From positions 1 to 64,000 of the forward strand of contig JADGRQ010000012.1 of assembly GCA_017880775.1 (NCBI GenBank): a stretch of DNA of 64,000 nt. Direction: 5' to 3'. This DNA comes from Burkholderiales bacterium (GTDB taxonomy: Bacteria > Pseudomonadota > Gammaproteobacteria > Burkholderiales > SG8-39). Position numbers and translations under genes: made by a program. The notes under the pieces are model-generated. The model was not told where the DNA came from, did not search any database, and was given only the letters and a program-made list of their open reading frames with translations. How positions within the stretch are numbered: the first letter of the stretch is position 1; the number at the start of each line of letters is the position of its first letter. Shown piece after piece: positions 2,431 to 13,226 of the stretch.

Positions 2431-2491
2431 GATTGCTCCCCACCTCAGTTTGCATCAAACGACAGGAAAATCAATCCCGCTCACGCCAACG

Positions 2492-3721
2492 CTATGCAGC
2501 GACCCGCAAAGGCAGCGCCTTCATTCCCCGGAACACCATCGAATTGATCCACTCGAGGCGATCTACCGGGACGGCAAGCTCCATCGTCCTCCAGCGCGCG
2601 AGCGCTGCCGGAATCGCGATCTGGCCTTCCAGGCGCGCGAGGGGAAAACCAAGGCAGATGTGCATGCCGAAGCCGAACGCGAGGTGCGGCACGCCGTCGC
2701 GGCGAAGATCGACGCGATCCGGATCGTGGTAGGCGGCCGGATCGCGGTTCGCCGCATTCAGCATCACGAACACGCGGTCGCCGGGCTTGAGACGTTTGCC
2801 ACGCAACTCCTGCTCGACCTTGACGATCCTGACCTGAACGCCGCTTGGCCCGTCGTATCGCAGCAACTCCTCCACAGCGCGCGGCGCAAGGCCCGGATCG
2901 GCGCACAGAGCCTGCATCTCGCCGGGGAACCGGAGGAGCGCGAGAAGGCCGTTGGCGATGTGGTTGGTGGTGGTCTCGTGGCCGGCGAACAGCAGCAGGA
3001 TGCAGGTCGCCACCAGCTCGTCATCGGTCAGCCGGTCGCCGCCTTCTTCGATGTTGACGAGCGCCGAGAGCAGGTCGCCGCGCGGCGCGGCGCCGCGCGC
3101 GGCGATCAATTCGCGGAACAGCGCGGCCATCTCGTGCGTGGCCGCCTCCGCGATGTCGTACTTCTCCGCTGCCATGCGCGAACTGCCGATGAAGAGCGCC
3201 ATGTCGTCCGACAGGCGCTTCACTCGCTCAAGCTCCTCGCGCGGCACCCCGAGCATCGCCATGATCACGAGCGCGGGCAGCGGGCCGGCAAAATCAGCGA
3301 TGAAGTCGATCTTGCCGCGCGCGCCGCAGCGCTCGAGGAGCCAGCGGACGAGATCCTCGACGACCGGTCGCATCGCGTGCATGGATTGCAGGTTGAACAC
3401 CTTGCTCGTAAGTCTGCGCAGGCGCGTGTGCTCGGGCGGATCGCGAAACACCATCCAGTGCGAGAGGTACCGGATGATGTCGGCAACGCGTTGCGACTCC
3501 GGACCCGGCAGCGTGGCGAAGAACGGCCGCAGGCGGTCGGAGGAAATCTCGCGGTCCAGGCAGACCGCCTTGACGTCGTCGTAGCGCGTCAGCACCCACG
3601 CTTTCAGGCGCGGACTCCAGTGGACCGGGTCTTCCTCCTGCATCCGGCGAAGAACCGGATACGGATCGGCGACGAACTCCGGCGCGTCGGGACGGAAATC
3701 GATCGCTTGCGCGATGCTCAT
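2492..3721 (-). CDS. Cytochrome P450
   Basis: Soluble bacterial P450 monooxygenase, 409 residues, normal for class I enzymes. Visible motifs: I-helix oxygen-activation segment AGHETT at 236-241, K-helix ExxR at 285-288, and the haem loop FGFGMHICLG at 349-358 with Cys356 as axial ligand. No transmembrane anchor or fused reductase is present, and no ferredoxin or ferredoxin reductase gene is found nearby, so redox partners must be encoded elsewhere. The start lies 4 bp behind the DUF5666 gene, indicating an operon. The substrate is unknown. Confidence 0.95.
   Translation of the reverse strand: MSIAQAIDFRPDAPEFVADPYPVLRRMQEEDPVHWSPRLKAWVLTRYDDVKAVCLDREISSDRLRPFFATLPGPESQRVADIIRYLSHWMVFRDPPEHTRLRRLTSKVFNLQSMHAMRPVVEDLVRWLLERCGARGKIDFIADFAGPLPALVIMAMLGVPREELERVKRLSDDMALFIGSSRMAAEKYDIAEAATHEMAALFRELIAARGAAPRGDLLSALVNIEEGGDRLTDDELVATCILLLFAGHETTTNHIANGLLALLRFPGEMQALCADPGLAPRAVEELLRYDGPSGVQVRIVKVEQELRGKRLKPGDRVFVMLNAANRDPAAYHDPDRVDLRRDGVPHLAFGFGMHICLGFPLARLEGQIAIPAALARWRTMELAVPVDRLEWINSMVFRGMKALPLRVAA
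2527..2552. repeat. P450-internal copy of the 26-bp near-repeat
   Basis: Partner of 1369-1394, lying in the final codons of the P450 gene. The two differ at two of 26 bases. Confidence 0.55.
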
Positions 3722-3725
3722 GCCT

Positions 3726-4319
3726 TCACATCGGCGGGACGAGCCCTTTCAGCCCGACGTTCACGCGCGCGGCAGTGAGGCTGCCGTCCGGCTGCTTCTG
3801 GGTGCCTACGAAGACGCTCGCGCCGGGCACCAGCGCCGAGCGGTCTGCCGGCACGAAGGTCACGATCGGCACGCCCTCGGGAACGAGGACCTTCTTTTCA
3901 CCGTCCTTGTAGCGCAGCGAGAATATGGCCCCCCCCACTGCCGACACATCCGCGACGGTGGCGTTGGTCATCATGCTGTCGGGCATCAGGTCCCAGGCAT
4001 AGTGCCCCTCGCCGGTGCCGCGCATGGCGTCGGGGAAGATCAGCACTTCGAGCGCGTTCTGGGTGCCGTCCGCCTGCGGCAACGACGCGACGCCGACAAA
4101 CTTGCCTGCGGTGATGTCGGCGCGCGACGCGGCGACCACGCCGGCGACGGTGAAGTTGTCGATCAGCTTGATTGTGACGCTCGGGCCTTCGCGCGACTTG
4201 ACGATCAACATCTGGCCATCGAGCTTCTCGATCTTGCCCCGCACGCGCACGGGCGGGGCCTGGGCGACCGCGACGGCGGCGTAGAGCAACAACAGCGATA
4301 CGGCGAGCAGGCGTTTCAT
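3726..4319 (-). CDS. Periplasmic DUF5666-like protein
   Basis: Small exported protein of 197 residues, function unknown. I place the start at the ATG at 4319, which has a GGAGG Shine-Dalgarno and opens a classical signal peptide ending VAVAQA; an upstream in-frame start lacks both. The mature part begins with a short beta-rich segment (VRGKIEKLDGQMLIVK) resembling the DUF5666/OB-like repeats of proteins that handle small ligands or metals, and a second such segment occurs near the C-terminus. It is the first gene of an apparent operon with the P450. The family call is moderate. Confidence 0.65.
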   Translation of the reverse strand: MKRLLAVSLLLLYAAVAVAQAPPVRVRGKIEKLDGQMLIVKSREGPSVTIKLIDNFTVAGVVAASRADITAGKFVGVASLPQADGTQNALEVLIFPDAMRGTGEGHYAWDLMPDSMMTNATVADVSAVGGAIFSLRYKDGEKKVLVPEGVPIVTFVPADRSALVPGASVFVGTQKQPDGSLTAARVNVGLKGLVPPM

Positions 4320-4408
4320 GGCAATCCTCCGGTGGGGTGGGGTGGGTATTCCGGTGCAGGCGAACTGGCTACAATCGTACATCACCCGGTTCTGCTAAGC
4401 TCAATTTC

Positions 4409-5113
4409 ATGGAGCGGATCTCGAAGCCACGCGGCGCGATCCGGCGCAGCAACCTCGCCGAGGCCGTCTACGCACGGCTCAAGGCGGACATCTTCGAGTT
4501 CCGGCTGCTGCCGGGCGCGCGCTTTTCGGAAAACGAGGTCGCCGCGCGCTCGCGCGTGTCACGCACGCCGGTGCGCGAGGCGCTGATGCGGCTCGCGCGC
4601 GAGGGCTACCTGCAGGTCCATGCCAAGGCCGGCTGGAGCGTGCAGCCGCTGGATTTCGACCAGTTCGAGCATCTCTACGACCTGCGTATCGTGCTCGAGC
4701 TGGCCGCTGTGCAGAAGCTTTGCGCCGGCAAGAACCGCGGCGCGCTCGACGGCCTGCGTAGCGTCTGGCTGGTAAGCCCGCGCAAGCGGCTCACCGACGG
4801 CGCAAGAGTGGCGCGCCTGGACGAGGAATTCCACACCGCGCTGGTCGCCGCCACCGGCAATCCGGAACTCGCGCGCGTTCACCAGAGCATCACCGAGCGC
4901 ATCCGAATTCTGCGCCGCCTCGACTTCACCCATTCCGAGCGGATCATCTACACCTACCAGGAGCATGCGGCGATCCTGCGCGCTGTGCTGGCACGCAACG
5001 AAAAACGCGCGTCGGCGCTGCTGCGCGCGCATGTCGAATCGAGCAAGGCCGAGGTGCGCACCATCAGCCTGCACCGCTTGCATCTTGCGCACCTGGACGC
5101 GCAAGGAGGCTGA
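4409..5113 (+). CDS. GntR-family regulator, FadR/FCD subfamily
   Basis: Transcriptional repressor or activator, 234 residues. An N-terminal winged helix-turn-helix (about residues 16-80, with RVSRTPVREALMRLAREG as the recognition region) is followed by an all-helical FCD ligand-binding domain, where Asp and His metal-binding residues are expected (LDEEFHTALVAATGN is typical). The ATG at 4409 fits the family N-terminus better than the upstream in-frame start at 4337. Its stop abuts the stop of the convergent NCS2 permease with no spacing. Because it adjoins the nucleobase/allophanate genes, it is the natural candidate to bind the twin GTATAC site at 8331-8348. That link is inference. Confidence 0.9.
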   Translation: MERISKPRGAIRRSNLAEAVYARLKADIFEFRLLPGARFSENEVAARSRVSRTPVREALMRLAREGYLQVHAKAGWSVQPLDFDQFEHLYDLRIVLELAAVQKLCAGKNRGALDGLRSVWLVSPRKRLTDGARVARLDEEFHTALVAATGNPELARVHQSITERIRILRRLDFTHSERIIYTYQEHAAILRAVLARNEKRASALLRAHVESSKAEVRTISLHRLHLAHLDAQGG

Positions 5114-6466
5114 TTACCGTTCCTTCGGGAACATCAGGTTGAGAATCATCGCGAGCAGGATGCCCATCACGATGCCGTCGGTGACGAGGATGCGCAGCGC
5201 CTGCGGGATCGCGTCGAACGCGCCCGGCGGCGCAGACTGAATCCCGAGCCCGACCGCCAGCGACGCGGCGAGGATCAGCGCGTCGCGCCGCGAGGTCATG
5301 TTGCGGCCGATGATGTCCACGCCGACCGAAGCGACCATGCCGAACATGAACAGCAGCACGCCGCCCAGCACCGCGTTCGGCATCAGCGCGATGATCGCCC
5401 CCACCTTCGGCACCAGCGCCATCAGGATCAGGAACAAGCCGCCGAAGGCCACCACGAAGCGGCTGCCGACGCCGGTGAGCGAGATCACGCCGATATTCTG
5501 CGAGTAGGAAGTGAGCGCCATGCCGCCGAACAGCGCCGAGAGCGCCGAACCCAGACCGTCATTGGACACCGCGCCGCGGATGCGCCAGCCCTCCGCGGGC
5601 ACGCCGCAGATGCGCGAGACCGCCAGCGTATGCCCGGTCGTTTCCACCGCGGTGGCGAAGAAGCATATGACCACCGTGATCACGCCGATCAATCCGGGCC
5701 AGGCCAGCCCGCCGTACGGAAACGGCGTCGGCACGGCGACCCAGCCCGCCTTCTCGACCATCGAGAGGTCGATCAGCCCGACCGCCGCCGCGATGACGTA
5801 GCCGATGACCATGGTCACGAACAGCGACAGCGCCCTGACGAAGCCCTTCGCGTAGCGGCTGATCGCGAGGATCAGCACGATCATCAGCGCTGCGAGGCCC
5901 AGCGTCAGAGGCTTGCCGAACGCCGGGGTGCCGAATCCCGAGGCAACGTTGATGCCGATCTTCATCAGCCCGGTGCCGATCAGCAGGATCGTCGTGCCGG
6001 TGACGATGGGCGGGAAGAACCGGTGCAGTTTGCCGATCAGCGGACTCCAGGCGAACTGCACCGCGCCGCCGATGATCAACGCGGTCATCGCCGCCGCGAG
6101 GCTCACCTCCTTCGAGATCGCGACGATCGGCCCGATGAAGATATAGAACACGCCCATCACGATCGGCAGGCGCGGCCCGATGAAACCCAAGCCCAGCGCC
6201 GAAATCATCGTCGAAATGCCGCAGCCGATCATGGTTCCCGAGACCATCAGGATGCGCGTCTCCTCGGAAAGATTCAGCAGCCGCCCGACGATCAGCGGCC
6301 CGCCGACCATCGCGGTAAACATCACCAGCACGTGCTGGATGCCGAACAGCGCGGTCTTGACGGGACCGGGGTAGTCGTTCAGTTCGAAATCGAGTTTCAC
6401 GAACCCCCGGTCGCTGCCGTGCCCCGCATGTTCCTGCGCTGCGGCTGCGTCTCCTTGCAAGCCCAT
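5114..6466 (-). CDS. NCS2-family nucleobase permease (xanthine/uracil type)
   Basis: Inner-membrane proton symporter for a purine or pyrimidine base, 450 residues with about 12-14 hydrophobic segments. The segment FATAVETTGH matches the conserved QExxGD/N-like substrate loop of NCS2 carriers, in diverged form. The ATG at 6464-6466 is favoured over GTG at 6472 because AAGGAGG lies at proper distance only for the ATG. The start follows the allophanate hydrolase stop by 2 bp, so the two genes form one coupled transcript. Import of a nitrogen-rich heterocycle or ureide whose breakdown yields allophanate fits the context, but the transported base is not known. Confidence 0.9.
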   Translation of the reverse strand: MGLQGDAAAAQEHAGHGSDRGFVKLDFELNDYPGPVKTALFGIQHVLVMFTAMVGGPLIVGRLLNLSEETRILMVSGTMIGCGISTMISALGLGFIGPRLPIVMGVFYIFIGPIVAISKEVSLAAAMTALIIGGAVQFAWSPLIGKLHRFFPPIVTGTTILLIGTGLMKIGINVASGFGTPAFGKPLTLGLAALMIVLILAISRYAKGFVRALSLFVTMVIGYVIAAAVGLIDLSMVEKAGWVAVPTPFPYGGLAWPGLIGVITVVICFFATAVETTGHTLAVSRICGVPAEGWRIRGAVSNDGLGSALSALFGGMALTSYSQNIGVISLTGVGSRFVVAFGGLFLILMALVPKVGAIIALMPNAVLGGVLLFMFGMVASVGVDIIGRNMTSRRDALILAASLAVGLGIQSAPPGAFDAIPQALRILVTDGIVMGILLAMILNLMFPKER

Positions 6467-6468
6467 GG

Positions 6469-8310
6469 TCACCCCTCCTTAACGAATTTTCGCCAGCTGC
6501 CGAGGCTCGAGATGTCGCGCGCCGAGCGCACCGCATGCGCCTCGCACAGGAAACCCTTCACATGCGTCCCGTCCTCCAGTGCCACGGTGCCGATGCCCAG
6601 CGGCGACGGAATGCCGTCGACAAAGCCACCGAACGCCTCCGACGGAACCTCCCAGACCTCGACATCGATCGAAACGCCCGCGTCGGAACGCACCAATCCG
6701 GGACGCGGCGGCGAGAACTCGGTGAGCGCGTAGAAGCGATAGACTGGCGCGGTGCGGCACCGGAGCGCAAGGCGCGCGCCGCGCTCGGTGAGTTGTTTGT
6801 TGAGCGGCAGCCCGGACATGTGCGCGCCGCACACCGCTACGCGGATCATCGCAGCGTCATCGCCAAGCATGGGTCGAACTGCGGGCGCGGCCGCGGGCAG
6901 CGGGTTTTTCGTCGCGCCCATCGTGCTCACCGCCGCGCGCTGCGCTGCGTCTGCGAGCGCGCACAGCGCATCGTCGGCGAACGCCGGCGCGATCAGCGTG
7001 ATGCCGAACGGCAGCCCGTTCGCCTGGAACCCGGCGGGCACCGCGATCGCCGACAGGTCGAGCAGGTTCATGAAATTGGTGTAATGCCCGAGGTTGCTGT
7101 TGGTGCCAATCGGATCGGCTCCGACCTCGGCGATCGTATAGATGGTTCCCGCAGTCGGCGAGACGAGGATGTCCACCTGGTCCCACACGGGAGCGGTTTC
7201 CCGCTGCAGCTCTTTCAGCCGGTAAAACGCGCTGAACGTATCGGCAGCCGTGAATTTCGCCGCGCCGCCGATGATCGCGCGGGTCACCGGGTGCAGCGAC
7301 TCAGGGCGCCGTTCGATGAACTCGCGGATCGCAACATAGCGCTCCGCCACCCAAGGGCCGTCATAGAGCAGGCGCGCGGTGGCGAAAAACGGCGCGAAAT
7401 CCACTTCCACACGTTCTGCGCCGAGTTTTTCCAGCCGTTCGACCGCGTCGTCGAACAGGCGCGCAGCGTCCGCATTGCCGAAAAATTCGAGCTGGCTCGC
7501 AAGCGGCACGCCGAATCGCAGGCCCGCGAACGAGGTTGGCGTCACCCGCCGCCCGATCGCCGGCTCGCGGCGCGAGAACGGATCCGCGGAATCGAAGCCG
7601 CGTGCCGCGCGCAGCACTGCCGCTGCGTCACGTGCGGTCAGCGCGAAGATGGAGATGCAATCGAGCGAACGGCAGGCGGGCACCACGCCGCGCGTGCTGA
7701 GCAATCCGCAGGTCGGCTTGTGGCCGACCAGGTTGTTGAAGGCCGCCGGCACGCGGCCCGAACCGGCGGTGTCCGTGCCGAGAGCAAAACTCGCGAGTCC
7801 GGCGGCGACCGCGATCGCCGGGCCCGAACTCGACCCACCCGGGACGTACGCCGGATTGAAGCTGTTTCCGGGCACCCCGTAAGGCGAGCGTACGCCGACG
7901 AGGCCCGTGGCGAACTGGTCGAGATTGGCCTTGCCGAGCGCAATTGCGCCCGCCGTGACGAGGCTCGCGACGACCGGCGCCGAATCTCTCGCGGTGTAGC
8001 GGTAGTCCGGACAAGCGGCGGTGGTCGGATGACCCGCCAGGTCAATGTTGTCCTTGATCGCGAACGGAATCCCGTACAACGGCAGCCCGTTCGGATAACT
8101 GAGCGGATCACCGCGCGGACCGCTGCGTTCTAGCTCGGTGGCACGCGCCATCAATTCCTCGTCCGGAACACGATGGATCCAGACTTTGTCGTCGCCGCGC
8201 CGCTCAATGCGCTGCAGCAATCCCGCGACCAGCTGCGTCGGGCGCAGGGTCCCGGCGCGGTAGCGCCGCCCGAGCGTCTCCAGGTCGAGCGATTCCTCCG
8301 GTCCCAGCAC
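6469..8310 (-). CDS. atzF: Allophanate hydrolase (AtzF/DUR2-like)
   Basis: Amidase-signature enzyme that splits allophanate to ammonia and CO2, 613 residues, close to AtzF (about 605). The N-terminal amidase domain carries the Ser-cisSer-Lys triad: Lys86 in IPFAIKDN, Ser160 in PGGSSSGPA and Ser184 in DTAGSGR. After about residue 470 comes the allophanate-specific C-terminal domain (GAHMSGLPLNKQL and GIGTVALEDG), which separates it from plain amidases. The frame stays open far upstream, but the GTG at 8308-8310 has GGGAGG six bases ahead and begins where family homology begins. No urea carboxylase gene is in the window, so allophanate probably comes from another source. Its promoter overlaps the twin GTATAC site. 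Confidence 0.93.
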   Translation of the reverse strand: MLGPEESLDLETLGRRYRAGTLRPTQLVAGLLQRIERRGDDKVWIHRVPDEELMARATELERSGPRGDPLSYPNGLPLYGIPFAIKDNIDLAGHPTTAACPDYRYTARDSAPVVASLVTAGAIALGKANLDQFATGLVGVRSPYGVPGNSFNPAYVPGGSSSGPAIAVAAGLASFALGTDTAGSGRVPAAFNNLVGHKPTCGLLSTRGVVPACRSLDCISIFALTARDAAAVLRAARGFDSADPFSRREPAIGRRVTPTSFAGLRFGVPLASQLEFFGNADAARLFDDAVERLEKLGAERVEVDFAPFFATARLLYDGPWVAERYVAIREFIERRPESLHPVTRAIIGGAAKFTAADTFSAFYRLKELQRETAPVWDQVDILVSPTAGTIYTIAEVGADPIGTNSNLGHYTNFMNLLDLSAIAVPAGFQANGLPFGITLIAPAFADDALCALADAAQRAAVSTMGATKNPLPAAAPAVRPMLGDDAAMIRVAVCGAHMSGLPLNKQLTERGARLALRCRTAPVYRFYALTEFSPPRPGLVRSDAGVSIDVEVWEVPSEAFGGFVDGIPSPLGIGTVALEDGTHVKGFLCEAHAVRSARDISSLGSWRKFVKEG

Positions 8311-8330
8311 CTCTGGCCTCCCGGCATCTG

Positions 8331-8348
8331 GTATACAAGCCAGTATAC
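8331..8348. promoter_or_regulatory. Twin GTATAC operator in the divergent promoter
   Basis: Two perfect GTATAC palindromes at 8331-8336 and 8343-8348, separated by AAGCCA, lie between the divergently transcribed allophanate hydrolase and fdrA genes. A minus-strand -10-like TATACT overlaps the second copy, and a plus-strand TACAAT (8351-8356) follows it directly. GTATAC-centred palindromes are typical of FadR/FCD GntR operators, and such a regulator is encoded at 4409-5113. Binding here could control both directions. Confidence 0.6.
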
Positions 8349-8362
8349 AGTACAATCCGTGC

Positions 8363-9904
8363 ATGGCGACGGCCGCGAAGGTGATCCCCAACCTGTACCG
8401 CGACTCCGTATCGCTGATGCAGCTCTCGGCTGCGCTCGCCGCGCTGCGCGGCATCGAGCAGGCCTCGGCCATCATGGCCACGCCTGCGAACCTCGCGCTG
8501 CTCGCCGAGGCCGGCCTCGAGACGGGGCGCATCGCACCGAGCCCCAACGACCTGCTGATCGCGGTGCGCGGCAAGAACCCCGCTGCGCTCGAAGCTGCGC
8601 TTGCTTCGGCCGTCGCCGAACTCGACCGGCCGCCGGCGTCTGCCGCGGCCGGCGGCCCGGCGCAGATGCCGCTGCGCAGCCTGCAGATGGCGCTCGCCGC
8701 ATCGCCCGCCGCGAACCTCGCCCTGATCTCCACGCCGGGCGAATACGCCGCGGCCGAGGCGATGAAGGCACTGCGCCTTGGCCTGAACGCGATGCTGTTC
8801 AGCGACAACGTGGCGCTGGATGACGAGGTCGCGCTCAAGCGCTACGCCGAGGCCCACGATCTGCTGGTGATGGGTCCGGATTGCGGCACCGCCATCATCA
8901 ACGGCGTGCCGCTCGGTTTCGCCAACGCGGTGCGGCGCGGCGCGATCGGCGTAGTCGGCGCTTCGGGCACCGGCACCCAGCAGGTGACGTGCCTGGTGCA
9001 TCGGCACGGCGCGGGCATATCGCATGCGATCGGCACCGGCAGCCACGACCTTCACAAGCAGGTCGGCGGCATTACCATGCTGCAGGGGATTCGCGCACTG
9101 GGCGGCGACAAGGCGACGAAGGCCATCGTGCTGGTGTCCAAGCCCCCGTCGCCCGAAGTAGCGCAAACGGTGCTTGCCGCGGCGCAAGCCTGCGGCAAGC
9201 CGGTGGTCGTGAACTTCGTAGGCGCTGCGCCCGAAAGCATCCGCGGCAAGAATCTGCATCCGGCCACCACGCTGGAGCACGCCGCGCTTGCTGCAGTGGC
9301 GCTGTCGCGCGGGCGCAAGCCGGCCGGAGCGCGCTCTGGCGCGTTGCCGCCGGTGCGCATCGGTCGCATGTCGAGCAGCCAGCGCTACGTGCGCGGCCTC
9401 TACAGCGGCGGGACCTTCTGCTACGAGGCCTCCGCGCTGCTCGGGGCCTCGCTCGGCGAGGTCTGGTCGAACGCGCCGGTCGATTCGAAGTATCGTCTCG
9501 CGAACGTGCGCAAGTCGAAAGGCCACACGCTGGTCGACCTCGGCGACGACGAGTTCACGCGCGGCCGCCCGCATCCGATGATCGACTTCCGGCTGCGCAA
9601 TGAACGCATCCTCGCGGAAGCAAACGATGCGGAAGTCGCGGTGATCCTGCTCGATGTGGTGCTCGGCTACGGCGCCCATCCAGACCCGGCGGCCGAGCTC
9701 GTTCCGGTGCTCCGGAAAGCGCAGGCCGCGGCACGCAGGAAGAAGCGCAGCATCGCCTTCGTCGGTTTCGTCTGCGGGACGGAACTCGACCCGCAGGGTC
9801 TGGAGGGACAGGAGGGGGCCCTGCGCGCTGCGGGAATGATCCTTACCGCGAGCAACGCGCAAGCCGTGCGCCTTGCTGCGTCGATCGCAGGAAAACGCCG
9901 ATGA
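8363..9904 (+). CDS. fdrA: FdrA/AllF-like acyl-CoA synthetase-fold protein
   Basis: Homologue of E. coli FdrA (AllF), a subunit of the oxamate carbamoyltransferase AllFGH of anaerobic allantoin breakdown. The fold is related to succinyl-CoA synthetase. The N-terminal region (YRDSVSLMQL, ATPANLALL) matches FdrA, and a Rossmann-like CoA-ligase segment (GVVGASGTGTQQVT) lies near 195-210. At 513 residues it is slightly shorter than E. coli FdrA (about 555). No Shine-Dalgarno precedes the ATG and a TACAAT -10 element ends only six bases upstream, so the mRNA may be leaderless. It overlaps the DUF1116 gene by ATGA. No AllH (DUF2877) partner exists in the window. Confidence 0.9.
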   Translation: MATAAKVIPNLYRDSVSLMQLSAALAALRGIEQASAIMATPANLALLAEAGLETGRIAPSPNDLLIAVRGKNPAALEAALASAVAELDRPPASAAAGGPAQMPLRSLQMALAASPAANLALISTPGEYAAAEAMKALRLGLNAMLFSDNVALDDEVALKRYAEAHDLLVMGPDCGTAIINGVPLGFANAVRRGAIGVVGASGTGTQQVTCLVHRHGAGISHAIGTGSHDLHKQVGGITMLQGIRALGGDKATKAIVLVSKPPSPEVAQTVLAAAQACGKPVVVNFVGAAPESIRGKNLHPATTLEHAALAAVALSRGRKPAGARSGALPPVRIGRMSSSQRYVRGLYSGGTFCYEASALLGASLGEVWSNAPVDSKYRLANVRKSKGHTLVDLGDDEFTRGRPHPMIDFRLRNERILAEANDAEVAVILLDVVLGYGAHPDPAAELVPVLRKAQAAARRKKRSIAFVGFVCGTELDPQGLEGQEGALRAAGMILTASNAQAVRLAASIAGKRR

Positions 9905-11328
9905 GCACCTTGTTCTCCCGACCGCTTTCGGTCCTCAACGTGGGCGTCGGCTCGTTTGCGCAGGCCATCAGGCAAGCCGGCGGCGAGGCTACGCACATCG
10001 AGTGGGCGCCGCCCGCGAATGGAGACCGCGCCGCGGGTGCCGCGCTCAGCCGCATGGTGAACCATCCACGGGTCGAAGCCGCGAACGCAAAAGCGGTCGA
10101 ACGCCTGCTCGCGGCGCAACCCCGGTTGGAGGGAATAGGCATCGCCGGTGATGCATTGCCCGGAATGGGCAAGCGCATGGTCCTGCACGCCGGGCCGCCG
10201 ATCGAATGGACACGCATGTGCGGCCCGATGAAGGGCGCAATCGCCGGCGCGATCCTGCTCGAGGGCTGGGCCGACAGCGAGAAGGAAGCTCAGGCACTCG
10301 CGGCGGGCGGAAAAATCGATTTCGAGCCCTGCCATCACCACGCGGCGGTCGGGCCGATGGCAGGCATCATCAGCCCGTCAATGCCGGTGTGGGTGGTGAA
10401 GAACGCGACCGATGGCAACCTCGCCTACAGCAACCTGAACGAAGGCCTCGGCAAGGTGCTGCGTTTCGGCGCCAACAGCCCGGAGGTGATCGCGCGACTG
10501 AAGTGGATGCAGAGCACGCTCGCACCCACGCTGCGTGCCGGGCTGGACAAGCTCGGCGTACTCGACCTCAAACCGCTGATGGCACAGGCGCTGCACATGG
10601 GCGACGAGGTGCACAACCGCAACACCGCCGCGTCGGCATTGCTCATCAAGCGGCTGGTGCCGGCGCTATTGAAAAGCGGCGCGCCGGCTTCCGATGTCGC
10701 CGCGACGATCGAATTCATGGCTGCCAACGACCATTTCTTCCTCAACATCTCGATGGCCGCGTGCAAGTCCATGCTGGACGCCGCGCACGGCATTCCGGAC
10801 AGCAGCCTCGTCACCGCAATGGCGCGTAACGGCGTCGATTTCGGCATCCGCGTGAGTGGGCTGGGCGAGCGCTGGTTTGCCACGCCCGCGCCGGTCGTGC
10901 ACGGGCTGTACTTTGCCGGTTATTCGATGGCCGATGCCGCGCCGGATCTCGGCGACAGCGCGATCACCGAGACCGCGGGCCTGGGCGGCTTCGCGATGGC
11001 GGCGGCGCCCGCGATCGTCAAGTTCGTGGGCGGCAATGCACAGGACGCGCTCGCCAATACGCTCGCCATGACGCATATCACGTTGAAGCGCAACGGCGCA
11101 TTCACGCTGGCGGCGCTCGATTTTGCCGGCACGCCCTGCGGCATCGACGCCCGGCGTGTGGTCGATACCGGGATCCTGCCGATCATCAACACAGGCATTG
11201 CGCACAAGGCGCCCGGAGTAGGACAGATCGGCGCAGGCGTCACGCGCGCGCCGCTGGCCTGCTTCACTCAGGCTGTCAGCGCGCTGGCGCGCTCCATCGA
11301 GTCGCTGGCGGACTCGGGCAAGGCGTAG
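9901..11328 (+). CDS. DUF1116 protein, AllG/YlbE-like
   Basis: Homologue of YlbE (AllG), the second subunit of the FdrA-linked carbamoyltransferase, 475 residues. Family-typical segments include GVGSFAQAI near the start, the histidine-rich DFEPCHHHAAVGPMAG and ANDHFFLNISMAACK. It starts within the ATGA overlap with fdrA and is followed 2 bp later by carbamate kinase, so stoichiometric co-expression is likely. With FdrA it presumably moves a carbamoyl group from a ureido compound to phosphate. In E. coli the donor is oxalurate and AllH is also required; AllH is absent here, so the substrate may differ. Confidence 0.88.
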   Translation: MSTLFSRPLSVLNVGVGSFAQAIRQAGGEATHIEWAPPANGDRAAGAALSRMVNHPRVEAANAKAVERLLAAQPRLEGIGIAGDALPGMGKRMVLHAGPPIEWTRMCGPMKGAIAGAILLEGWADSEKEAQALAAGGKIDFEPCHHHAAVGPMAGIISPSMPVWVVKNATDGNLAYSNLNEGLGKVLRFGANSPEVIARLKWMQSTLAPTLRAGLDKLGVLDLKPLMAQALHMGDEVHNRNTAASALLIKRLVPALLKSGAPASDVAATIEFMAANDHFFLNISMAACKSMLDAAHGIPDSSLVTAMARNGVDFGIRVSGLGERWFATPAPVVHGLYFAGYSMADAAPDLGDSAITETAGLGGFAMAAAPAIVKFVGGNAQDALANTLAMTHITLKRNGAFTLAALDFAGTPCGIDARRVVDTGILPIINTGIAHKAPGVGQIGAGVTRAPLACFTQAVSALARSIESLADSGKA

Positions 11329-11330
11329 CG

Positions 11331-12278
11331 ATGGCCTCGCGCGGGATCGCGGTCGTGGCGATCGGCGGCAACGCGCTGATCCGCGACCGGCACCATGAAT
11401 CGATTCCCGACCAATACCGGATGGTCGCCGGCATCGCGGTGGATATCGCCGGAATGATCGTGGAAGGCTGGAACGTCGTGGTGACGCACGGCAATGGCCC
11501 GCAGGTCGGATTCATCCTGCGGCGCTCGGAACTCTCGATCCACGAAGTGCCGCCGGTGCCGATGGACTACGCCGGCGCCGACATCCAGGGTGGGGTGGGC
11601 TATATGTTCGTACGCGCCTTGCGCAACGAATTCCGCCGTCGCGGCATGGCGCGGCAGGCGGTGGCGGTAATCACGCAAACCGTGGTCGACCGCGCCGATC
11701 CGGCATTCGCCAATCCGACCAAGCCGATCGGCTCGCACATGGAAGAAGCGAAGGCCAAGAGCCTCGCGCTCAAATATCGCTGGACCGTGCGCGAGGACGC
11801 GGGGCGCGGCTGGCGGCGCGTCGTGCCTTCGCCAAAACCGACGGCGATCGTCGAAACCGATGTCATCCGGCACATGGCCACCGCCGGATATGTGGTGGTG
11901 GCCTGCGGCGGCGGCGGGATTCCGGTGGTTGAGGATGAGAACGGCGACCTGTGCGGCGTCGAGGCGGTGATCGACAAAGACTTAGCCTCCAGCCTGCTCG
12001 CGCGCAGCCTCGGCGCTGAGGCGCTGGTGCTGCCCACCGGCGTCGAGAAGGTAGCGCTCGATTTCAACAAGCCGACGCAGCGCTGGCTGGAAAAAATGAC
12101 CCTTGCCGAGGCGAAGCGCTATTCGGCCGAAGACCAGTTCGACAAGGGCAGCATGGGGCCGAAGGTCGCCGCGCTGATCGACTTCGTCGAGGGCGGCGGC
12201 AAGCTCGGCCTGATCACCAACCCGCCGAACCTGCCGCGCGCGCTGCGCGGCGAGACGGGAACGCGGGTGGTCGCCTGA
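11331..12278 (+). CDS. arcC: Carbamate kinase
   Basis: Carbamate kinase of the amino-acid kinase fold, 315 residues, the normal length. The N-terminal AIGGNAL and THGNGPQVG loops bind nucleotide and carbamoyl phosphate, and the glycine-rich CGGGGIPVV segment is conserved. Located directly behind fdrA and DUF1116, it would convert the carbamoyl phosphate they make into ATP, ammonia and CO2, as AllK does in E. coli. No arginine deiminase or ornithine carbamoyltransferase gene is nearby, which argues against the arginine pathway. Its stop lies 3 bp from the convergent TAXI receptor stop. Confidence 0.95.
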   Translation: MASRGIAVVAIGGNALIRDRHHESIPDQYRMVAGIAVDIAGMIVEGWNVVVTHGNGPQVGFILRRSELSIHEVPPVPMDYAGADIQGGVGYMFVRALRNEFRRRGMARQAVAVITQTVVDRADPAFANPTKPIGSHMEEAKAKSLALKYRWTVREDAGRGWRRVVPSPKPTAIVETDVIRHMATAGYVVVACGGGGIPVVEDENGDLCGVEAVIDKDLASSLLARSLGAEALVLPTGVEKVALDFNKPTQRWLEKMTLAEAKRYSAEDQFDKGSMGPKVAALIDFVEGGGKLGLITNPPNLPRALRGETGTRVVA

Positions 12279-12281
12279 CGA

Positions 12282-13226
12282 TCAGGGTTTGATGAGGCCG
12301 GCTTCGCGGTAATAGCGCAACACGCCCGCATGAAGTTGCTCGGGTTTCGCAGCCGCTACGGTGTTCGCCGCCGTCGTCTCTTTCGCCACCGCGAGGCGCT
12401 GCCCGAGCTGCGCCTCGCCCAGATGCAGTGCGCGCGCGAGCCGGTACGCGACGGACTCATCCAGCCCGGGGCGCGCCATGATGAAACTCCACGAACCCAG
12501 CGACTGGATAGGCTCGGTTTGCCCCGGGTACGTATTCGCAGGCACCGTGAGGGCGCGCAGAAAGGCGTGCTTTGCGAGGATGCGGCGAATGCCGTCGGCG
12601 TCCGGAACGATGAAGCGCGCGCCGCCCGGGCTCTCCGCCATCGCCTTGAAGCCGGGCCAGCCGAGACCGCCGCCCCACAGCGCCGCAGCCTGGCCATCGA
12701 GCACCATTTTCGGCCCGTCTCCAGCACGATCGAGGTACTGCGCGTTGAAATCCCGCTCCATGTCGAGGCCGATGCCGTCGAGGACGTAGCGCGCAAGCAC
12801 TACCAATCCGGAACCTTTCGCGCCGAACACGACCGTTTTGCCCTTCAGGTCCTCGATCGAACGCGCCGGCGAATCGGCCCGCAGCACGAACATCCCCGGA
12901 GAGGAATACATCGCCGCCAGCACGCGCAGGTCCGCCTTCGGCCGGCCGATTCCAGAGAGCGCCTCGTGCACGACTTCGCCGGTGACGAGGCCGAGGTCGA
13001 TCTTTCCTGCGTCGAGCAGCGGCACATTCTCGGTGCTGCCCTTGGTATTGCGCGGCTGGACGTCGAGCGTGGGATCGGTCGCGTTGATCGTGTCGGCGAC
13101 GGCCTGACCGTACAACGGGAAACCCCCGCCTGGGGTTGCGGTGCCGAGCGTCACTGCGATTTTGTCAGACGCCATCGAGACTCCAGACAACAACGCCAGA
13201 GAGAAAGCTGCGCACCGGCAGATCAT
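12282..13226 (-). CDS. TAXI-family TRAP transporter solute-binding protein
   Basis: Periplasmic receptor of the TRAP-associated extracytoplasmic immunogenic (TAXI) family, about 314 residues. A signal peptide (MICRCAAFSLALLSGVSMA) precedes the mature SDKIAVTLGTATPGGGFPLYG, a TAXI hallmark. I prefer the ATG at 13226; a GTG at 13244 is possible, and neither has a clear Shine-Dalgarno. No DctQM-type membrane component is in the window. It lies 46 bp behind the AMP-ligase gene and may be the last gene of that operon, suggesting uptake of the acid that the ligase activates. Confidence 0.88.
   Translation of the reverse strand: MICRCAAFSLALLSGVSMASDKIAVTLGTATPGGGFPLYGQAVADTINATDPTLDVQPRNTKGSTENVPLLDAGKIDLGLVTGEVVHEALSGIGRPKADLRVLAAMYSSPGMFVLRADSPARSIEDLKGKTVVFGAKGSGLVVLARYVLDGIGLDMERDFNAQYLDRAGDGPKMVLDGQAAALWGGGLGWPGFKAMAESPGGARFIVPDADGIRRILAKHAFLRALTVPANTYPGQTEPIQSLGSWSFIMARPGLDESVAYRLARALHLGEAQLGQRLAVAKETTAANTVAAAKPEQLHAGVLRYYREAGLIKP

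Follow-up and report, generated by a model that had tools for sequence, protein, structure and literature searches.

Known systems and the proposed route

The AllFGH carbamoyltransferase of Escherichia coli with the kinase AllK (PMC11326118) is among the closest described systems to a gene cluster found at the start of contig JADGRQ010000012.1 of a Burkholderiales bacterium (assembly GCA_017880775.1; 4.3 Mb, 88 contigs, 97.83% complete), in a stretch of 64,000 nucleotides referred to here as the window. In both systems, homologues of FdrA, AllG (DUF1116) and carbamate kinase are encoded in one operon, and by analogy the predicted chemistry would also be shared, with an acylurea and phosphate giving carbamoyl phosphate and an amide. 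Unlike the E. coli system, the window operon contains no AllH gene, its AllG belongs to a separate clade, and its neighbours encode the allophanate hydrolase AtzF and an NCS2 permease, not allantoin enzymes.

The triuret pathway TrtA-(TrtB)-BiuH-AtzF of Herbaspirillum and Rhizobium (PMC7948467) shares with the source genome a TrtA-type gene and with the cluster AtzF. The source genome differs in having no comparable BiuH, with FdrA, AllG and the kinase in its place. In contigs of comammox Nitrospira, allFGHK adjoin trtA, biuH and atzF while trtB is lacking, and archaeal contigs with biuH often carry allFGHK; the report, in its available part, treats triuret/biuret degradation and oxalurate degradation as separate pathways (PMC12625717, 2025). 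Among the loci compared here (numbered with L), comammox locus L059 encoded TrtA, BiuH, AtzF and AllH-FdrA-AllG-kinase, L060 the same set except that no amidase domain was detected, and L061 a part of them; these clusters have AllH and BiuH, unlike the window cluster. An Enterobacterales plasmid (L054) shares NCS2, FdrA, AllG (61%) and the kinase with the window, but it has a cyanurate hydrolase and AllH, and no AtzF was found in its stretch.

Analysis of the gene neighbourhoods suggests, with a probability of about 0.5, that FdrA-AllG acts as a carbamoyltransferase on carboxybiuret and that ATP is recovered. The cluster would be the back half of a phosphorolytic triuret route (cyanurate in relatives). 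A triuret hydrolase encoded elsewhere in the genome would produce 1-carboxybiuret, HOOC-NH-CO-NH-CO-NH2. Acting alone or together with the AllH encoded on another contig (C54), FdrA-AllG would transfer the terminal carbamoyl group of carboxybiuret to phosphate, giving carbamoyl phosphate and allophanate; carbamate kinase would use the carbamoyl phosphate to make ATP, and AtzF, whose gene diverges from a shared 52-bp region, would break allophanate down to ammonia and CO2. In the analogous E. coli reaction, AllFGH converts oxalurate to carbamoyl phosphate and oxamate. The proposed substrate, carboxybiuret, differs from oxalurate by an NH inserted between the carboxylate and the acylurea, and its phosphorolysis would yield allophanate, the substrate of AtzF. 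The earlier note on this DNA had proposed a ureido or heterocyclic substrate whose other part ends as allophanate, outside allantoin breakdown; a ureido compound of this kind fits the comparisons reported below well, with 1-carboxybiuret as the candidate.

Among the papers listed in our literature search, none named a carbamoyltransferase for carboxybiuret, biuret or triuret, and PMC12625717 was the one among them to join these genes, in its available part without a carbamoyltransferase link. The present reading joins the oxalurate-type and triuret genes into one route, where that paper separates them. If true, it would assign a substrate to a large DUF1116 clade whose members currently carry a domain name or an annotation borrowed from E. 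coli, and triuret and cyanurate degradation, whose steps in the published accounts available are hydrolytic or decarboxylating, would gain a step that conserves energy. It would also give a reason for comammox allFGHK beside trtA without trtB, and a role for the plasmid cyanurate-hydrolase operon.

Genes accompanying AllG in related loci

The loci were 35 stretches from a survey of the order, the best 80 of at least 557 relatives in named genomes, one plasmid and E. coli K-12; 115 loci were counted after removal of five duplicates (L057, L058, L076, L077 and L095). The AllG tree held 112 sequences, with L032 left out as too short and L048 and L049 without a usable AllG. The window AllG fell in a 70-member clade (support 0.93) that contained neither E. 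coli AllG nor YahG. A locus counted as well flanked when each side of it extended for 3 kb or more, which gave 54 loci in the clade and 22 outside it.

A TrtA-type isochorismatase was encoded in 46 of the 54 well-flanked clade loci and an AtzD-family ring-opener in four, with both together in none (0/54). The same 54 loci contained a kinase (47), any AH_C domain (42), a complete AtzF (7) and a BiuH-type gene (3). At least one of TrtA, BiuH, AtzD and AH_C was present in 53/54, L065 being the exception, and by the same rule none of the four was found in the 22 well-flanked loci outside the clade. TrtA and cyanurate hydrolase, which both yield carboxybiuret (PMC7948467), are unrelated proteins that replace each other beside FdrA-AllG. 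By parsimony AtzD was gained three times, and L054 and L114 were nested in a TrtA-bearing group (supports 0.93 and 0.997).

TrtA differs from BiuH at six positions, with F35, N41, A134, E160, Y187 and I205 in TrtA versus Y, Y, S, D, T and V in BiuH (PMC7948467). Among the 61 isochorismatase matches in clade loci, 38 had 6/6 TrtA states, 11 had 5/6, and seven were partial or neither; all six BiuH states were found in five (L021, L022, L059, L060 and L061). TrtA (6xix) was the best PDB match of the four isochorismatases tested. In L031 (6697-7764), an AH_C domain of the stand-alone type is fused to a TrtA-type isochorismatase just before fdrA.

These linkages bear on the view that the cluster serves E. 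coli-type oxalurate salvage and that its triuret-type neighbours form a separate pathway, the two substrates being purine-oxidation products that are imported together. The E. coli enzyme has been proven on oxalurate and oxamate (PMC11326118), the window proteins are of the same families, and oxidised urate can yield triuret and cyanurate (PMC7948467). Oxalurate salvage is nevertheless unlikely here: linkage to TrtA, AtzD and AH_C was seen only in the clade without E. coli AllG, the allantoinase match of the source genome is below the cut-off, and this view offers no explanation for TrtA and AtzD replacing one another next to one and the same enzyme.

Only 3/46 TrtA loci had a BiuH-type gene nearby. 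BiuH is thus rare near TrtA and has no match of comparable score in the source genome, which leaves the step from carboxybiuret to allophanate without an enzyme, and FdrA-AllG could take that place. The 43/46 TrtA loci with no nearby BiuH-type gene would also suit biuret as the substrate, in which case carboxybiuret would first lose CO2, either unaided or by action of the AH_C protein, and FdrA-AllG would form carbamoyl phosphate and urea. The decarboxylation of carboxybiuret has a half-life of about 20 min in vitro (PMC7948467), and a stand-alone AH_C-family protein adjoins the kinase at many loci, 12 of such genomes being without an AtzF at the cut-off. However, urea as the product would not account for the presence of AtzF in the window and in its relatives, and the proven substrate of the family has a terminal carboxylate, whereas biuret has none; biuret is quite unlikely as the substrate of the window enzyme.

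Bit scores assigned the ring-opener of L054 to cyanurate hydrolase (6bum, 582.1 bits vs. 327 for barbiturase), as they did that of L072 (389.3 vs. 296.7), and the AtzD of L114 was 100% identical (rounded) to that of L054 over the alignment. The ring-openers of L028 and L070 scored 482.3 and 484.9 bits with barbiturase and 305.4 and 308 bits with cyanurate hydrolase. These two loci belong to a distinct subclade of four members (support 0.991), where the barbiturase neighbours point to ureidomalonate, the CH2 analogue, as the substrate. Because barbiturase-like ring-openers adjoin fdrA-allG in them, ureidomalonate (from barbiturate) or another acylurea was also weighed as the substrate in the window, the allophanate arm then being a chance neighbour. 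This is very improbable, given the separate position of L028 and L070 in the tree, the lack of a PF09663 match in the source genome, and the divergence of atzF and fdrA in 9/115 loci, seven of them with the repeat described below in exact or weaker form.

Carboxybiuret, oxalurate and ureidomalonate could tentatively be brought under a wider reading, in which FdrA-AllG would be a general phosphorolytic splitter of HOOC-X-CO-NH-CO-NH2, with X set by clade and AllH optional. With no X, oxalurate would give oxamate; with CH2, ureidomalonate would give malonamate, beside barbiturase; and with NH, carboxybiuret would give allophanate, beside TrtA, cyanurate hydrolase and AtzF. If this is true, the breakdown of triuret, cyanurate and barbiturate would each gain an unrecognised ATP-conserving branch.

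Pathway genes elsewhere in the source genome

One TrtA-type protein with 6/6 diagnostic residues was encoded on another contig than the window (C9:14320-14961), and it scored 282.6 bits with TrtA 6xix vs. 251.3 and 242.8 bits with BiuH proteins. The BiuH model NF050097 gave 285 bits for this TrtA-type protein and then 57.7 and 22.7 bits in the source genome, none reaching the cut-off of 370, and the AtzD model PF09663, which scored the plasmid protein at 537.5 bits, had no match in the source genome or in the control genomes. The urea carboxylase model TIGR02712 had 17 matches in the source genome, none at the cut-off of 1303.85; the best (576.4 bits) covered positions 1-441 of 1201. A role of AtzF as part of a urea amidolyase was rejected, since urea carboxylase never reached the cut-off in this genome. 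Because the genome has TrtA and AtzF, and no BiuH-level protein, AtzD or urea carboxylase at the cut-off, carboxybiuret is the simplest linking substrate.

The TrtA gene on C9 adjoins a branched-chain-amino-acid-type ATP-binding cassette (ABC) transporter. The stretch L055 9312-15302 (C9) holds the TrtA-type gene and the importer genes (ATPase, two permeases and binding protein), and this importer is a candidate triuret uptake unit.

Distribution of AllH

The earlier note had described the cluster as being without AllH. This holds for the cluster, as the AllH model PF11392 had no match in the window; its sole match in the genome was on contig C54, in a second set, fdrA-arcC-allH-allG, which lies on one strand throughout. 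An AllH hidden in the window was rejected, with PF11392 unmatched and the place beyond the GntR gene, where AllH is sited in L016 and L117, holding other open reading frames (ORFs). In the tree, the AllH of the source genome grouped with the C54 lineage and not with the window-type lineage (L016, L117 and L048). Because the genome carries AllH in the second set, the two-subunit carbamoyltransferase put forward in the earlier note cannot be claimed for this organism; AllH also lay within about 10 kb in 38/54 well-flanked clade loci, with none nearby in 16/54. The C54 set (L002 12625-18245) is accompanied by a divergent LOG/lysine-decarboxylase-family gene and, about 5 kb off, by a branched-chain-amino-acid-type ABC transporter.

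The earlier note had taken an AllH gene together with a full allantoin pathway in the genome as speaking against its view. The AllH gene is present; the allantoinase match reached 234.2 bits at best, below the cut-off of 357.85, and AllA, AllC, AllD and AllE were not searched genome-wide. Homologues of AllA-E above 80 bits were absent from the first 20 kb of the window. They were also absent from 54/54 well-flanked clade loci and from 21/22 well-flanked loci outside the clade, and this absence says little, as it does not discriminate between the two groups.

The survey of the order (349 genomes) gave an AllG match in 32 genomes and an AllH match in 20. In the family of the window, six genomes had two AllG matches; G000, G059, G180 and G241 had exactly one AllH each, and G010 and G211 had none, but in both of these an AllG cluster reaches a contig end, and their AllH may simply lie outside the assembly. 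PF11392 was searched in 14 genomes of unstated completeness, including three positive controls with a local AllH, all of which were recovered. The other 11, whose cluster is without AllH, gave no match anywhere in eight, four of these being mycobacterial and hence not independent, and one match each in three.

In E. coli, loss of allH alone lowered oxamate from 17.7 to 1.2 mM; allFG without allH restored 7% (2.9 ± 3.3 mM), against full restoration by the three genes together (PMC11326118). AllH therefore matters in E. coli, and an AllH-free enzyme in other organisms is plausible. In L049 (7753-7875, genome G180), a TrtA-like C-terminal stretch was seen directly before AllH, with the remainder of the gene not in frame.

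Conserved site between the two arms

The gap between atzF and fdrA contains the repeat GTATAC-N6-GTATAC, for which 100 shuffles of the window gave an expectation of 0, the pattern having been fixed after the site was seen. In nine of the 115 loci, the window counted, atzF diverged from fdrA at a distance of no more than 3 kb; the gap was 60-152 bp in 8/9 and 1.8 kb with intervening genes in L021, and this recurrence is more than chance. Seven of the nine have the repeat, exact or weaker. The full repeat or a one-base variant lay between the arms in L056, L016, L019, L117 and L021, and a weaker form in L018, while L073 had one half-site and L030 an incomplete one. The exact form GTATAC-N6-GTRTAC was present in 11/141 loci (the window-locus copy, L016, L019, L021, L022, L056, L064, L117 and three duplicates), and in L064 it stood just ahead of a GntR gene.

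The two arms are probably co-regulated, because this conserved repeat sits between them. The repeat also favours control of both arms by the adjacent GntR/FCD protein, a possible reader of the site.

Weighing of the carboxybiuret assignment

Several observations weigh against carboxybiuret as the substrate. The boundary of the AllG clade was set after the contexts were known, and the sample favours the closest relatives and is not an unbiased census. When 77 loci were labelled TrtA, AtzD or neither, the labels required 5 changes on the tree (shuffled mean 26.3); the context counts mostly reflect shared descent, and a Fisher test on them does not count as independent evidence. The view that all ring-openers are cyanurate hydrolases was rejected, as those of L028 and L070 are barbiturase-like by bit score. 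TrtA is missing from the window cluster and from L016 and L056, the only further loci of its subclade that are well flanked. Beyond the clade, an isochorismatase of L123 shows 3/6 TrtA states, and AtzF-like amidases without AH_C occur in L024, L026, L047 and L115.

The allophanate end of the route belongs to the same side of the balance. AtzF was under the cut-off in 15 of the 21 genomes tested, namely 12 with stand-alone AH_C clusters, that of L071 with TrtA only, and those of L114 and L072 with ring-openers. A His of the AtzF C-terminal domain (10/10) was Leu in 37/37 readable stand-alone AH_C copies (one gap), and by sequence the stand-alone proteins form a subfamily distinct from AtzF. The L031 fusion had hinted that stand-alone AH_C and an isochorismatase might together be a plain substitute for AtzF, but the Leu-for-His change and the TrtA-type neighbours weaken this idea. 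The genomes with no AtzF above the cut-off leave the end step of allophanate unaccounted for, and conversion of biuret to urea is the main alternative there.

Layout of the cluster and gene identities

The earlier note had given a six-gene layout, a GntR/FCD regulator, NCS2 and atzF with a divergent, coupled fdrA-allG-arcC operon, and coordinates and profile matches agreed with it for all six genes (Table 1). The fdrA/allG and atzF/NCS2 pairs overlap by 4 bp each, and allG and arcC are spaced by 2 bp. The start of atzF is most likely the GTG at 8308-8310, preceded by GGGAGG.

Table 1. Features of the window cluster, with profile scores and model cut-offs.
Feature	Position	Strand	Evidence
GntR/FCD regulator	4409..5113	+	PF00392 61.1 bits, PF07729 75.6 bits; ORF open from 4337, ATG at 4409
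NCS2 nucleobase:cation symporter, xanthine-permease-like	5114..6472	-	PF00860 250.5 bits; TIGR03173 380.5 bits, under the 414.15 cut-off
AtzF allophanate hydrolase (amidase and AH_C domain)	6469..8310	-	TIGR02713 784.8 bits (cut-off 511.05)
Probable operator, GTATAC-N6-GTATAC	8331..8348	.	Two half-sites 12 bp apart in the atzF/fdrA gap
FdrA (AllF-like), succinyl-CoA-synthetase-alpha-like carbamoyltransferase subunit	8363..9904	+	NF004760 504.9 bits (cut-off 433); PF00549, PF02629
AllG (DUF1116) carbamoyltransferase subunit, TrtA/AtzD-linked clade	9901..11328	+	PF06545 332.2 bits (cut-off 27); tree
Carbamate kinase (ArcC/AllK-like)	11331..12278	+	NF009007 369.3 bits (cut-off 266); TIGR00746 350.6 bits, just under 358.25

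The window AtzF aligned full-length to solved allophanate hydrolases, scoring 602.5 bits with 4gyr, and the motifs KDN, GSSSG, GSGR, LYxGPWVAER and GAHMSG aligned. The window NCS2, a possible substrate importer, showed 36% identity across 434 positions with its counterpart adjoining the cyanurate hydrolase in L054.

The predicted structure of the window AllG (mean predicted local distance difference test score, pLDDT, 71.2) matched 3clq with a template modelling (TM) score of 0.78 by query length. In the fold search, three 3clq chains, of unknown function, were found at E ≤ 0.001 and nothing else was convincing, so that no mechanism was gained. About 55 C-terminal positions of the E. coli-type FdrA model matched the N-terminus of the window AllG (window 9895-10035; L136 681-2348); by sequence, the segment that ends E. 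coli-type FdrA sits on the AllG subunit in the window.

A protein of about 520 residues (L017 8914-10485 and 20 more loci) gave 29 matches in 21 loci; it appeared permease-like by eye only and had no Pfam or NCBIfam match. On the L054 plasmid, cyanurate hydrolase, NCS2, AllH, FdrA, AllG, ArcC and LysR are encoded in an operon between IS26 copies (2452-12531). Upstream of the cyanurate hydrolase gene lies that of a 411-residue protein (2452-3687) with no Pfam match. The operon was found in 49 plasmid records, 47 of them with 80% or more of the query covered, and 36/49 were predicted to be conjugative.

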